Source: Deltaproteobacteria bacterium (GTDB taxonomy: Bacteria > Desulfobacterota > Binatia > HRBIN30 > JACQVA1). From it: a DNA stretch of 45,932 nucleotides. The translations under genes were made by a program, and so were the position numbers. This document shows positions 5,075 through 16,642 of the stretch, in pieces. A model generated the notes under the pieces. The model had not been told where the DNA came from. It did no database searches and saw nothing but the letters and a program-made list of their open reading frames with translations. The stretch lies in NCBI GenBank assembly GCA_016210005.1, contig JACQVA010000116.1, forward strand, positions 1-45,932. The letters run 5' to 3'. Numbering within the stretch: position 1 is the first letter of the stretch; every line of letters starts with the position of its first letter.

Positions 5075-5748
5075 TACCGCTCCAGCTCCTTGTCGACGTC
5101 CCGCATCAGCGTACGCAGGTACTTGATGGCCGAGAGCGCGGCTTTGAGTTCCTGCGTCAGAGCAGCGGTGTCGGCGGCGCGGGTGTCCCAGCGCGCGAAG
5201 TTGCGCGCCAGTGCGGCTAGGTGTGCCTGGCGCTGATCTTCGAGGGTCGCCCTAATCCGCCTGATTTCATCCCTGAGCGCACTGGCGGCACCATCTTGTT
5301 GGCGCAGGACTTCGAGCTTCTCCTGGACTTCGAAAACCAGCGCTGCCAAGTCCGGTGGCACGCGGTGGTTCTTCCCACCGAGGGTCTCACCGTGCAGCCC
5401 GAGCCAGTAGATGCCACGCTCGACGGGATCGCGCAGCGTGCGATAGGCGCGGTTCAACATCGCCGTGTTCCCCAGGCTGGCGATGCGCGCCTGCGCTGGG
5501 CCCCGGAGATGAACATCCGGGTGCAGCCGGCGGCTCAGGTCGAAGTAGCGCCGCTGGAGATGATCCAAGTCGAGGTCGAGCCGGCGTTCGATGCCGAGGA
5601 TGCGGAAGTAGTCGGTCTGCGCCGCCAGCGCCTGGATGGCATCACAGGTCAGACAAAAAAGGCTGGGGACGTTGGTGGTGCCGCACTGCCAGCAGCGCAC
5701 ACGTGCCACCGCTTCCTGGGGTGCCGGTGTGGGAGGAGTCGGTTCCAT
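5074..5748 (-). CDS. hscB: HscB, J-domain co-chaperone with N-terminal zinc finger
   Basis: The product is 224 residues, longer than E. coli HscB (171). The J-domain spans about 45-120 (YFRILGIERRLDLDLDHLQRRYFDLSRRLHPDVH) with the HPD motif that stimulates HscA ATPase. The C-terminal helical bundle (about 130-220) should bind IscU. The extra N-terminus contains CWQCG and CLTC (residues about 19-35), two CxxC pairs spaced as in the zinc-binding extension of eukaryotic HSC20; in bacteria this extension is seen only in some lineages. It is preceded by a Pro/Thr-rich start. It lies 14 bases after iscA in the operon. Confidence 0.93.
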   Translation of the reverse strand: MEPTPPTPAPQEAVARVRCWQCGTTNVPSLFCLTCDAIQALAAQTDYFRILGIERRLDLDLDHLQRRYFDLSRRLHPDVHLRGPAQARIASLGNTAMLNRAYRTLRDPVERGIYWLGLHGETLGGKNHRVPPDLAALVFEVQEKLEVLRQQDGAASALRDEIRRIRATLEDQRQAHLAALARNFARWDTRAADTAALTQELKAALSAIKYLRTLMRDVDKELER

Positions 5749-11905: not shown

Positions 11906-12991
11906 TCAGGCCGCGCCAACGGCCGCCGGTGCGAGATTGCGCGCCGCCTTCACTGTCTGCGCCGCCTCGTAGAGCAGCGCTTCGGTTTCGTCCCAGCCGA
12001 TGCACGCATCAGTGATCGAGACGCCGTATTCGAGCGCCGCCCCTTCTCGCCACGTCTGTTTGCCGGGCCGCAGGTTGCTCTCCAGCAGCACACCCATGAT
12101 GGGCTCGTAACCGTCGCGCACCTGCCGCAGTACTTCACGACACACGTGGGCCTGCCGGGTGTGATCCTTGTTCGAGTTGTCGTGCGAGCAATCGACCATG
12201 ATCGGGCGCGCCACGCCTTGCTGTGAGATCAGCCGCGCCGCCCGGGTGACATCGGCCGCCGAGTAGTTCGGCTTGCCGCCCCCGCCGCGCAACACGACGT
12301 GTCGATCGGGATTGCCCTTGGTCTTGATCACCGAGGTCACGCCCTCGGCGTTGATGCCCAGGAAAGCATGCGGACTGCGCGCCGAGATCATGGCGTTGAG
12401 GCAGACTTCCAAGCCGCCGTCGGTGCCGTTCTTGAATCCCACCGGCATCGACAGGCCGCTGGCCATCTCGCGATGGGTTTGGCTCTCGGTGGTGCGCGCG
12501 CCGATGGCGGCCCAGCTGAGCAGATCGGCGATGTACTGGGGCGTGACCGGGTCTAGCGCTTCGTAGCCGCACGGCAGGCCGAGCCGGTTGATGTGTAGGA
12601 GAATCTCGCGCGCCAGTTTCAAACCGGTGGCGACATCGCACGACCCGTCGAGATGGGGGTCGTTGATCAATCCCTTCCAGCCGATGGTGGTGCGGGGTTT
12701 CTCGAAATAGGTGCGCATGACCACGACGAGTTGGTCGCGGGTGGCCTCGGCCACGGCAGCCAAGCGCTGGGCGTAGTCGCAAGCGGCTTCGCGGTCATGA
12801 ATCGAGCACGGGCCGACCACCACGAGTAACCGCTGCCGGTCGCGGCCATGGATGATGTCGCGGATCGCCCGCCGTGCGTGCAGCACCACGCGGCTGGTCT
12901 GCTCCGTACGCGGCAACTTCGCCTGCACGGCTTTGGGCGAGATCAACGGGATCACCTCGGCCAAGTTCGCGTTCTCGATTTTCTCTGCCAT
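11906..12991 (-). CDS. aroG: 3-deoxy-7-phosphoheptulonate (DAHP) synthase, class I (AroG/F/H type)
   Basis: First enzyme of the shikimate pathway, condensing PEP and erythrose 4-phosphate. From the ATG at 12989-12991 the product has 361 residues (E. coli AroG 350). Signatures of the type I-alpha enzymes are present: LLVVVGPCSIHD, MRTYFEKPRTTIGWKGLINDP, IGARTTESQTHREMASGLSMPVGFKNGTDG, KTKGNPDRHVVLRGGG, IMVDCSHDNSNKDH and the metal-binding end YGVSITDACIGWDET. Which isozyme (Tyr-, Phe- or Trp-sensitive) cannot be read with certainty, so the symbol is generic. The leader upstream contains a terminator hairpin and an aromatic-rich leader ORF, so expression is very likely controlled by attenuation. 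GGAAAGGCAGGCG precedes the ATG as a loose ribosome site. Confidence 0.95.
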   Translation of the reverse strand: MAEKIENANLAEVIPLISPKAVQAKLPRTEQTSRVVLHARRAIRDIIHGRDRQRLLVVVGPCSIHDREAACDYAQRLAAVAEATRDQLVVVMRTYFEKPRTTIGWKGLINDPHLDGSCDVATGLKLAREILLHINRLGLPCGYEALDPVTPQYIADLLSWAAIGARTTESQTHREMASGLSMPVGFKNGTDGGLEVCLNAMISARSPHAFLGINAEGVTSVIKTKGNPDRHVVLRGGGGKPNYSAADVTRAARLISQQGVARPIMVDCSHDNSNKDHTRQAHVCREVLRQVRDGYEPIMGVLLESNLRPGKQTWREGAALEYGVSITDACIGWDETEALLYEAAQTVKAARNLAPAAVGAA

Positions 12992-13019: not shown

Positions 13020-13053
13020 AAAAAAAAAGCCCCGAGATTGCTCCCGGGGCTTT
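13020..13053 (-). terminator. Attenuator terminator in the DAHP synthase leader
   Basis: On the minus strand GCCCCGGGA pairs with TCTCGGGGC (13029-13050) in a 9-bp stem containing one G-T pair, closed by a GCAA tetraloop. AAA (13051-13053) and TTT (13026-13028) extend the stem, and the T-run reaches 13020 (nine T in total). This is a textbook intrinsic terminator. It ends 28 bases before the DAHP synthase ATG and follows no gene end, so its job must be to control read-through into aroG. Confidence 0.9.
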
Positions 13054-13123
13054 CGGTTTCTGCGCCGTCAATCGGCCGTTACACGCTCACGCAGACTCCA
13101 GCGGCCCCGGTACCCACCAGGGG
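13044..13123 (-). promoter_or_regulatory. Mutually exclusive pairing segments of the aroG attenuator
   Basis: Three segments on the minus strand can pair alternatively. Segment 1, CCCCTGG (13123-13117), and segment 2, CCGGGGC (13110-13104), lie inside the leader ORF and can form a hairpin with one bulged T. Segment 2 is also perfectly complementary over 7 bp to segment 3, GCCCCGG (13050-13044), which is the 5' arm of the terminator. Pairing 2:3 would prevent the terminator. Caution: segment 2 starts only three bases after the second Trp codon, so a ribosome stalled there would cover it. Stalling at the earlier Tyr/Phe codons leaves it free. Confidence 0.6.
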
Positions 13124-13164
13124 AAGCTAAAATACGCGAAGGCGTAGCGGCTCGTGGAGATCAT
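13087..13164 (-). CDS. Aromatic-rich leader peptide of the DAHP synthase attenuator
   Basis: ATG at 13162-13164, TGA at 13087-13089, 25 residues. Residues 7-17 read YAFAYFSFPWW: two Tyr, three Phe and two adjacent Trp in 11 codons. It has no other recognisable property. The stop is followed after 33 bases by the intrinsic terminator and then by aroG. Such residue bias directly before a terminator and a biosynthetic gene is the signature of ribosome-mediated attenuation, as in E. coli trpL and pheL (established knowledge). The mix of all three aromatic residues fits control of the common first step of the pathway. AAGG lies about eight bases upstream of the ATG. It is too short for ordinary gene calling. 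Confidence 0.88.
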   Translation of the reverse strand: MISTSRYAFAYFSFPWWVPGPLESA

Positions 13165-13172
13165 GTGCTGCC

Positions 13173-13217
13173 CTTGTAGCTCGCCCGCCGGATTGCGTCA
13201 ACCGGATCGTGCCGGTT
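13173..13217 (-). promoter_or_regulatory. Candidate promoter and overlapping palindrome upstream of the leader ORF
   Basis: TTGACG (13201-13196) and TACAAG (13178-13173) on the minus strand are separated by exactly 17 bases, a reasonable sigma-70-like pair. A palindrome AACCGG-ATCGTG-CCGGTT (13200-13217) overlaps the -35 and the stop codon of the HAD gene and could be an operator. Transcription from this site would begin within a few bases of the leader ATG, making it nearly leaderless and excluding the AAGG sequence, so the true start may be further upstream. Confidence 0.35.
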
Positions 13218-13946: not shown

Positions 13947-15194
13947 CTAGCTGTAGCGCGCCGCCACCCCGCGGGCGGGGCCGTGCCGGGAAACGGCTTC
14001 CCGCAGATCAGTGAGGAAGCCCTCCACTATCTTGGCGTGATTCGGCGTCACCATCATGTGCAAGGCGTGGGGATTTTCCTGGCGATCGAGATGCCAACCC
14101 TTGTCGTCCATTGCGTCACCCACGGCCATGATGTCGATTTCGTCGGAACCGAACGCCATCAAGCTGGTGTCGGGCTGGCCCCAGATCTTCAACGGCCCGA
14201 TGGCCTCGATCCCAGCACGCAGCCGCTGCGCCGTCTCCATGACGAGCGACTGCAATCGTAAATAGCCGGCCTCGCCGAGGTAGTTCATTACCGCCCAGGC
14301 CGCCGCGATCGGCGCCGCCGGACGGGTGCCGGCAAACGCCGCCGAGCCGTACAGCCCGCCGGGCCAGTCATCGTACATGAACATCTGGTATTGAATCGTC
14401 GCCTGGCTGCGATGGGCGATCACCGAGGCGCCCTTGGTGCAATAGCCGTATTTGTGCACGTCCGCCGAAATCGTGGTCACGCCCGGCACGCGAAAATCCC
14501 ACGGTGGCACCGGATAGCCGAGCCGCTCGATGAACGGCAGCAGGAAGCCGCCGACGCAAGCGTCGGTGTGGAACGAAATGTTGTGCTCGGCTGCCAGCCG
14601 TGCCAGCTCGGCGATCGGGTCGATGACGCCGTGCGGATAACACGGCGCCGAGCCCACCATCAGTACGGTGTTGCCGGTGATCAGCTTCGCCGCCGCCGCA
14701 ACGTCAGCCCGCAGATCATCACGCAGGGGCACCGGCTTCATCTCGACGCAGAGATACTTGCCGGCCTTCGCAAACGCGGGATGCGCCGAGCGCGGGATCA
14801 CCATTTCCGGCGCCGTAATCCCCCGCTCCGCATGCGCGCGGTCACGCGCCGTCTTGACCGCCATCAGGATGCTCTCGGTACCGCCCGAGGTCATCGCCCC
14901 GGTCGCGTCCTCGCCGCCGTGCAAGAGATCGGTGGTCATGGCGACAATATCCGCCTGCATCTGGCGCAGGCTGGGGAAGCGGAAGGGGTTGAGGGCATTC
15001 TCGAACAGGTAGAGATTATTGGCCTCGCGCAGCACCTCATCGACGTCATCGCCCGCCGGGTAGACCAGGCTCCAAGTCCGCCCACCATGCCAGTCGGCAT
15101 CGCGGGTCTTCATCTCTCGCATTGCGGCGAAGAGGTCAGCGCGCGGGATTCCGGTTCTCGGCAGCTTCATCTTCTTGCGACTGCGCTCGCTCAT
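13947..15194 (-). CDS. PLP-dependent decarboxylase/lyase (sphingosine-1-phosphate lyase or group II decarboxylase-like)
   Basis: The start is the ATG at 15192-15194, which overlaps the amidase stop as ATGA, giving 415 residues; the open frame continues upstream antisense-like through the amidase and is not coding. It contains GAMTSGGTESILMAVKTARD (substrate/PLP phosphate region), SAHPAFAKAGKYL, HTDACVGGFLLPF (Asp to the PLP ring nitrogen), and SADVHKYGYCTKGASVI with the Schiff-base Lys. These are hallmarks of fold type I decarboxylases; the HKYGY form with a following Cys-Thr-Lys-Gly is most like sphingosine-phosphate lyase and archaeal MfnA relatives. Substrate unknown. There is no membrane anchor, unlike eukaryotic SPL. 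Confidence 0.85.
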   Translation of the reverse strand: MSERSRKKMKLPRTGIPRADLFAAMREMKTRDADWHGGRTWSLVYPAGDDVDEVLREANNLYLFENALNPFRFPSLRQMQADIVAMTTDLLHGGEDATGAMTSGGTESILMAVKTARDRAHAERGITAPEMVIPRSAHPAFAKAGKYLCVEMKPVPLRDDLRADVAAAAKLITGNTVLMVGSAPCYPHGVIDPIAELARLAAEHNISFHTDACVGGFLLPFIERLGYPVPPWDFRVPGVTTISADVHKYGYCTKGASVIAHRSQATIQYQMFMYDDWPGGLYGSAAFAGTRPAAPIAAAWAVMNYLGEAGYLRLQSLVMETAQRLRAGIEAIGPLKIWGQPDTSLMAFGSDEIDIMAVGDAMDDKGWHLDRQENPHALHMMVTPNHAKIVEGFLTDLREAVSRHGPARGVAARYS

Positions 15195-16642
15195 TGCGCC
15201 AGGGCGTGCACCGGCGGGCGTCGGCCGGCCCATGGGCGCGCTTGCTCCAGTTGTGCCGCGACGCGAATGAGCAAGTCCTCTCGCCCATAGGCGGCCGCCA
15301 GTTGCACGCCGATGGGCAACCCGTCCGCGCTCCAATGCAGCGGTAGCGAGATTGCCGGCTGGCCAGTGACGTTGAAGGCGGCGGTAAACACCGTGCACGG
15401 TGTGCTGCGGAACAAGCCGCGCAGCGGATCTTCCGCTGTCGAGCTCAGCTCGCCGAGCTTCACCGGCGGTGTTGCCATCGTCGGTGTCAGCAGGAGATCG
15501 AACCCCTCGCTCCACCAGCCGGCGATACGACGGGTGAAGCCGTGCATCCATTCCACCGCGCGGACATATTGCAGCGCCGACACCGCTCGGCCCATCTCCG
15601 CCAGCCCCCAGCTGTTGGGTTCGACGTCGGTCGCACCGATCGGGCGGCCGAGCTGCTCGCTCCAGTACGCCAGGTCACGGGCCGTCCAACTGGTTACGAC
15701 GCTGGAGAAGTGCGTCATGAAGTCGGGGTCCGCGAGCGCGCGTGGATAGGCATCCTCGACTACGTGGCCGAGCGACTCCAGCAGGCGCGCGGCGCTGTTG
15801 GCCGCGGCCACGCAGTCAGCGTGCACCGGCACGGTGTCGACCGGTGAGCTGGTCATCAGGCCGATGCGCAAGCGGCCTGCCGGCGCGCCGACCTCGTCGC
15901 GAAACGGCCGCGGCGGTGGCGGTGCGGTGTACGGGTCACCCGGCATTGCTCCCGAGACGGCGTCAAGAATAGCTGCGGTGTCGCGCACCGAGCGGCTGAT
16001 GGCGTGCTCGATAACGCAGCCGGCCCAAGTCTCCCCGGCATCGGGGCCGAGCGAGACCCGCCCGCGCGAGGGCTTCAAGCCCACCAGGCCACAGGCGCTG
16101 GCCGGGATGCGGATCGAGCCGCCGCCGTCATTGCCGTGCGCCGCCGGCACCATGCCCGCCGCCACTGCGGCCGCCGAACCGCCGCTGGAGCCGCCGGGCG
16201 AGCGCGTAATGTCCCACGGATTGTGAGTTGGGCCAAAGGCGCGCGGCTCGGTGGTCGGCATCGGACCCAGCTCGGGCACGTTGGTCCTGCCTACGAACAC
16301 AAAACCCGCCGCGCGGAACTTGGCTGCCAGATAGCTGTCGTGCGTCGCCACCCAACGGCGCTCGCGCAGCAGCTGCATGCCGGCATGATAGGGGTCGCCG
16401 GCCGACTGGCAAACCAGGTCCTTCAGCAAGAACGGCACCCCGCGAAACGGCCCCTCCGGCAACGCTGCGACAGCCTGCGCCCGCGCCTTGTCGAAGAGCG
16501 GGGTGATCACCGCGTTGAGCTTGGGGTTGACCCGCTCGATGCGGGCAATGGCAGCATCGACCAGCTCGCGCGGCGTCAGTTGACCGCGCCGCACCAGGTC
16601 GGCTTGGGCCGTGGCATCCAAGGTGGCAAGTTCGTCTCTCAT
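15191..16642 (-). CDS. Amidase signature family enzyme
   Basis: The product is 483 residues. It has the amidase-signature triad: Lys in FLLKDLV (about residue 74), cis-Ser and nucleophile Ser in SPGGSSGGSAAAVAAGMVPAAHG-type block (about 148-170), and GGGSIRIPASACGLVGLKPSRGRVS. The GatA subunit shares this fold, but no gatB or gatC is nearby, and the sequence around the pocket (WAGCVIEHAISRSVRDTA) looks like broad-specificity amidases. It probably hydrolyses a carboxamide, with the product perhaps passed to the overlapping decarboxylase gene; the link is inference. No signal peptide. Confidence 0.9.
   Translation of the reverse strand: MRDELATLDATAQADLVRRGQLTPRELVDAAIARIERVNPKLNAVITPLFDKARAQAVAALPEGPFRGVPFLLKDLVCQSAGDPYHAGMQLLRERRWVATHDSYLAAKFRAAGFVFVGRTNVPELGPMPTTEPRAFGPTHNPWDITRSPGGSSGGSAAAVAAGMVPAAHGNDGGGSIRIPASACGLVGLKPSRGRVSLGPDAGETWAGCVIEHAISRSVRDTAAILDAVSGAMPGDPYTAPPPPRPFRDEVGAPAGRLRIGLMTSSPVDTVPVHADCVAAANSAARLLESLGHVVEDAYPRALADPDFMTHFSSVVTSWTARDLAYWSEQLGRPIGATDVEPNSWGLAEMGRAVSALQYVRAVEWMHGFTRRIAGWWSEGFDLLLTPTMATPPVKLGELSSTAEDPLRGLFRSTPCTVFTAAFNVTGQPAISLPLHWSADGLPIGVQLAAAYGREDLLIRVAAQLEQARPWAGRRPPVHALAQ

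Follow-up and report, generated by a model that had tools for sequence, protein, structure and literature searches.

A predicted leader-peptide attenuator with aromatic control codons upstream of the DAHP synthase gene aroG in Binatia and related bacteria

In Escherichia coli, DAHP synthase is encoded by three repressor-controlled isozyme genes. The E. coli leaders trpL (RF00513) and those of the multi-residue ilvL type work by the mechanism proposed below for a bacterial DAHP synthase gene, and in ilvL one leader already answers to several end products of a common path. The E. coli pheL-pheA system (RF01859) likewise has a Phe-rich leader and the logic of 1:2, 2:3 and 3:4 pairings, but its target is pheA rather than DAHP synthase and its Rfam model gives no match on the DNA analysed here. 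As cited in PMC8632094 and PMC2659441, an attenuator of E. coli aroF-tyrA was hypothesised in 1980. In Corynebacterium glutamicum, the aroR leader attenuates the DAHP synthase gene aroF (Neshat et al. 2014, as reported in PMC11802643); this system is likewise ribosome-mediated, with aromatic codons (Phe-Tyr-Phe) and a DAHP synthase target, but it belongs to another phylum, no Trp is reported in it and Tyr is without effect, and it is likened here by description (PMC11802643). The uORFC-13-1 motif upstream of aroF in Acholeplasma, a proposed attenuator with predicted Phe sensing, also combines a conserved uORF with a terminator before a DAHP synthase gene, but occurs only in Acholeplasma and environmental sequences and is likened here by description (PMC8632094). 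Aromatic attenuators go unmentioned in a regulatory survey of metal-reducing delta-proteobacteria (PMC545781). The initial annotation of the present locus gave no earlier description of such a leader; this stands for these bacteria, many of which appear from their sequences to conserve the same design and for which we found no earlier report in the open-access literature, but not more broadly, given the attenuators known in Corynebacterium and proposed in Acholeplasma.

The locus lies on the minus strand of a 45,932-nucleotide contig (JACQVA010000116.1, hereafter the window) from a Binatia genome. A predicted promoter (13201-13173), leader ORF, terminator and aroG follow one another in that order. 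Our preferred reading, to which we would assign a probability of roughly 0.9, is that transcription attenuation of the trp/phe type, mediated by the ribosome, controls aroG.

13164-13087, minus strand: leader ORF of 25 aa, MISTSRYAFAYFSFPWWVPGPLESA, from the ORF list, with ATG at 13164 and stop TGA at 13089-13087
13114-13146, minus strand: control codons 7-17, Y A F A Y F S F P W W, from the ORF translation
13020-13053, minus strand: intrinsic terminator, with 5' arm 13053-13042, loop GCAA 13041-13038, 3' arm 13037-13026 and nine T to 13020
12991-11906, minus strand: aroG, type Ia DAHP synthase of 361 aa by TIGR00034, with ATG at 12991

The initial annotation had placed YAFAYFSFPWW at codons 7-17 of a 25-codon minus-strand ORF, which is correct to the base, and had followed it 33 nt later with a terminator (9-bp stem, GCAA loop, nine T) and then aroG; the terminator, the distance from the leader stop to its 5' arm and the gene order all hold. 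The 9-bp core of the terminator is GCCCCGGGA/TCTCGGGGC with one G.U pair, and the stem reaches 12-13 bp when flanking A/T pairs are counted. An aromatic-rich short ORF upstream of a pathway gene and an intrinsic terminator between that ORF and the first gene are thus both present, as expected of an attenuator. The aroG product scores 477 bits against TIGR00034 (aroFGH; cut-off 173), and aroG is the sole type Ia DAHP synthase gene of the host genome, present in single copy. Leaders were also looked for at trpE, pabB and prephenate dehydratase in this genome, and none was seen. Upstream, a HAD-family gene ends only ~50 nt before the leader, and beyond it lies a gene for a PLP-dependent decarboxylase of the MfnA/glutamate decarboxylase group (13947-15551, minus strand), whose product scores 233 bits against TIGR03812, under that model's cut-off.

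Seven of the eleven control codons specify aromatic residues; among the window's 600 short ORFs the runner-up reaches four. Across 20 Markov-simulated windows (18,235 ORFs of 10-45 aa) the maximum was five per 11 codons, and in 136 kb from 34 related loci the only ORF to reach seven was the homologous leader L082. The comparison that the initial annotation had proposed, for aromatic codons and a terminator in relatives, found both upstream of a DAHP synthase gene at 28 loci besides the window: 11 from Binatia, 16 in a second set (14 from other classes of the phylum and two Deltaproteobacteria records, L059 and L063) and one from Polyangiaceae. With the window, the Binatia leaders number 12, plus the truncated L117, and the aroG genes behind the leaders of the relatives are 60-80% identical to that of the window. 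Binatia cores read FAYFTFPWW (L082), FAYFTFPW (L091), YFAYFTWP (L083, L084, L090), FYVGFFTWP (L089), YTGFTWP (L088), WFFGYFTW (L092), FFWYFSLW (L093), VVWYFIF (L095) and VVWSYF (L118); the second set has the types FFWFYFS, YYYFYFYY or YYYYYY, and the Polyangiaceae leader (L072) has FFWFGYW. In the homologous FAYF core, Phe and Tyr codons vary at the third base while the residues are unchanged. Leader-like ORFs at L019, L050 and L012 were dropped, as their upstream sequence shows no terminator. The leaders of L063, L191 and L197 are rich in Tyr, with up to six Tyr codons running, which suggests that the DAHP synthase downstream is a Tyr-specific isoform.

On an AroG tree, possession of a leader is clustered in two separate clades (6 changes, versus 20 in shuffles). 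The leader is absent from family f8, L094 and Nitrospira, whose aroG genes are close and fall inside the clade of the window. A leader model (R1) ranked its 12 source leaders first across 148 genomes of the class and recovered distant leaders but not leader-free loci; in the host genome it found no second copy. No riboswitch, T-box or leader family of Rfam fits the window, which falls below the gathering score for Phe_leader and Trp_leader, and the E. coli controls do match. A 15-nt string, TTTTACCTTCCCCTG, located where the control codons end, is common to the leader of L082 and to pheL of E. coli (L230), which is probably convergence.

Among the Binatia sequences four pairs of the terminator have changed on both sides with all cells paired (0/500 shuffles), and in the leaders examined, with L175 and L072 re-anchored, the terminator begins 22-36 nt past the leader stop. 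At seven loci (L164, L169, L170, L172, L175, L182 and L183) a second terminator-like hairpin lies directly before aroG, after the attenuator and with no second leader.

Alternative pairings involve the following segments.

13116-13122, minus strand: segment 1, CCCTGGT, which includes the first Trp codon and pairs with 13111-13105 in the MFE fold
13104-13110, minus strand: segment 2a, CCGGGGC, outer antiterminator strand and perfect complement of 13050-13044
13090-13100, minus strand: segment 2b, TGGAGTCTGCG, inner antiterminator strand, which abuts the leader stop codon and pairs with 13064-13054 in the MFE and centroid folds
13054-13064, minus strand: segment 3b, CGCAGAAACCG, inner antiterminator strand in the inner-stem fold
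13044-13050, minus strand: segment 3a, GCCCCGG, common to antiterminator and terminator by complementarity and covariation

The exact complementarity of CCGGGGC (13110-13104) to GCCCCGG (13050-13044) is as the initial annotation had it. Its proposal that an earlier segment, CCCCTGG, sequesters segment 2 survives in part: a 7-bp pairing is present in the MFE fold, with strands better given as CCCTGGT (13122-13116) and ACCGGGG (13111-13105). An antiterminator that uses the terminator 5' arm, and so excludes the terminator, is available, but taken alone that of the window is weak evidence, as dinucleotide shuffles equal its 2:3 complementarity in 40/200 cases. Since this is within chance, the case for the antiterminator needs the relatives. 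There, no shuffle gave a better summed 2:3 duplex energy (0/200), in Binatia or in the second set, when the terminator loop was included in the test; with the loop omitted, the second-set pairing was missed. In the second set, five pairs of the antiterminator covary (4/500 shuffles) and every slid control was worse. Covariation of 2:3 is thin inside Binatia (two pairs, 64/500 shuffles), where the core is invariant: across the 12 sequences the GGGC/GCCC part does not change and 90.6% of cells are paired. In L082, segment 3b reads GTAG opposite CTAC, with pairing kept.

On transcripts cut before segment 4, a long antiterminator of outer and inner stems was predicted in 11/11 folded Binatia sequences, window included (z -2.2 to -4.7); the signal was weakest in the window (8/200 shuffles). 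Mean z was -2.4 in each group versus -0.6 for aroG upstream regions without a leader. RNAalifold on a MAFFT alignment recovered the outer stem and missed the inner one, because the arms shift register. This composite antiterminator, with its inner part abutting the leader stop codon, is newly found here by modelling; because, in the window, the inner stem has a 5' strand that runs right up to that codon, a ribosome finishing the leader would have to break the stem.

Transcription is predicted to start a few nucleotides before the leader ATG, from two boxes:

13196-13201, minus strand: predicted -35 box TTGACG, with TTGMC at the same place in all 12 Binatia leaders
13173-13178, minus strand: predicted -10 box TACAAG after a 17-nt spacer, ending 8 nt before the leader ATG

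None of 200 shuffles reached the promoter score of the window. TTGMC followed 16-18 nt on by a second box is found upstream of the leader ATG at 12/12 Binatia loci; the second box ends 7-12 nt from the ATG in 11/12 and 18 nt away in L093, and at 9/12 loci the score was equalled by at most 5/200 shuffles. A scan for sigma-70 patterns found no promoter, the conserved element scoring under the scan cut-off, and no such pattern was seen in the second set. A start so near the ATG would give almost no 5' UTR, and the leader mRNA is thus predicted to be leaderless or nearly so. The trpL transcript of Sinorhizobium meliloti starts at the leader ATG (PMC7298713), and its leader peptide is leaderless in the way predicted for the window, the start being mapped only in S. 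meliloti; it differs in that it has Trp codons only and acts on trpE(G).

The ORF, the terminator, the complementarities and their conservation or covariation can be read from the sequences; the start of transcription, coupling, stalling and the choice of relevant amino acids are what we infer in the following course of events. Transcription would begin a few bases upstream of the leader ATG. With charged Tyr-, Phe- and Trp-tRNA plentiful, the ribosome would reach the stop codon and cover 2b and part of 2a, so that the 3:4 pairing forms and transcription stops before aroG. In an aromatic shortage it would stall at W16 or earlier, at one of the Tyr and Phe codons in the stretch 7-14, covering segment 1 and leaving segment 2 free, and the long antiterminator of 2a:3a and 2b:3b would form before segment 4, allowing aroG to be transcribed. 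If the leader were not translated, 1:2 pairing would form and the terminator would stand.

Which residues are sensed was approached with a stall model that sets the ribosome edge 9 or 12 nt past the first base of the A-site codon. In this static model, whose chosen footprint serves to rank codons and not to predict rates, segment 3a of the window was paired in the antiterminator with probability 1.00 for stalls at Y7 to F14, 1.00 or 0.57 at W16 and 0.57 or 0.45 at W17, by assumed edge, and 0.42 with the ribosome at the stop codon. The Tyr and Phe codons are thus placed so that stalling would expose segment 2 and completion of the leader would hide it; W16 is borderline in this respect, and W17 is not so placed. 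The concern of the initial annotation that the Trp codons are very close to segment 2 is justified: W16 is 9 nt and W17 6 nt from it, nearer than in E. coli trpL, where the Trp codons of the published segments lie ~20 nt before segment 2. In E. coli controls, the gap from the last codon to segment 2 is 9 nt for Thr in thrL and 10 nt for Phe in pheL. W16 therefore equals the thrL gap and stands at the limit, and W17, being closer, is probably beyond it. By reading of the sequences, the spacing is similar, 7-10 nt, in the remaining Binatia leaders that have an edge Trp.

On this modelled geometry, Phe and Tyr sensing is well supported and likely, and Trp sensing is possible. The attenuator proposed in the initial annotation is supported, and its sensing of all three residues is something we infer, Trp being the weakest. 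We give a little less than an even chance to the reading that a single leader translated from its own 5' end responds to each of the three aromatic residues, with Tyr and Phe codons at an ordinary distance and Trp at the edge of segment 2, and gives graded control of the first common step, so that one gene does the work of three in E. coli.

An attenuator sensing only Phe and Tyr, whose Trp codons persist because the segment 1 helix needs TGG, we regard as rather unlikely. TGG of the window does sit within segment 1, a stall at W17 has about the same outcome as one at the stop codon with W16 borderline, some control stretches of the second set have Tyr alone or Tyr and Phe (L063, L191, L197, L059), and the Corynebacterium AroR (Phe-Tyr-Phe) answers to Phe only (PMC11802643). 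Against this, at least one Trp, a rare residue, is present in 12/12 Binatia leaders; L095 and L118, which have no edge Trp, have one in the upstream cluster, at a canonical distance of ~22-24 nt from segment 2; and FFWFYF leaders carry a mid-cluster Trp 25-31 nt before that segment.

Highly improbable is a TnaC-like nascent-peptide arrest, in which the leader peptide and a free aromatic amino acid would stall the ribosome. The pattern F-x-Y-F-T/S-x-P-W recurs in several Binatia leaders, but it overlaps in part with RNA pairing, second-set leaders have the aromatic content without it, and stalling in excess product would switch in the wrong direction unless the geometry were inverted. That the hairpin is a plain terminator of the HAD-family gene beside a chance aromatic ORF, with the aroG promoter downstream, is close to negligible: the leader does begin only ~50 nt past that gene, but the arrangement is kept at 28 other loci, the predicted Binatia promoters lie upstream of the leader and the aromatic ORF exceeds chance in simulated windows.

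With ribosome-mediated attenuation of aroG, tRNA would directly control entry into aromatic synthesis, both in Binatia and in further members of the phylum. The leaders form a natural series (Tyr only, Phe/Tyr and Phe/Tyr/Trp, with varying Trp distances) that could serve as a gauge of the reach from stall to segment 2, and of how a single attenuator weighs several amino acids.

Run on the 148 genomes of the class, the leader model also finds leaders rich in Leu that precede leuA in family f12, where L245-L250 have such leaders (e.g. MNLHLGLLLILALSGAHAAGVEVQA) and a terminator. The host genome likewise has a Leu-rich leader, MNANAHTALGQLLLALLLLLLRCPPGASGGA, upstream of leuA (L252; contig C138, ATG near 5246, minus strand), together with a promoter-like element close by and two hairpins that resemble terminators. 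From these leaders, attenuation by leader peptides appears to be in wider use across Binatia.
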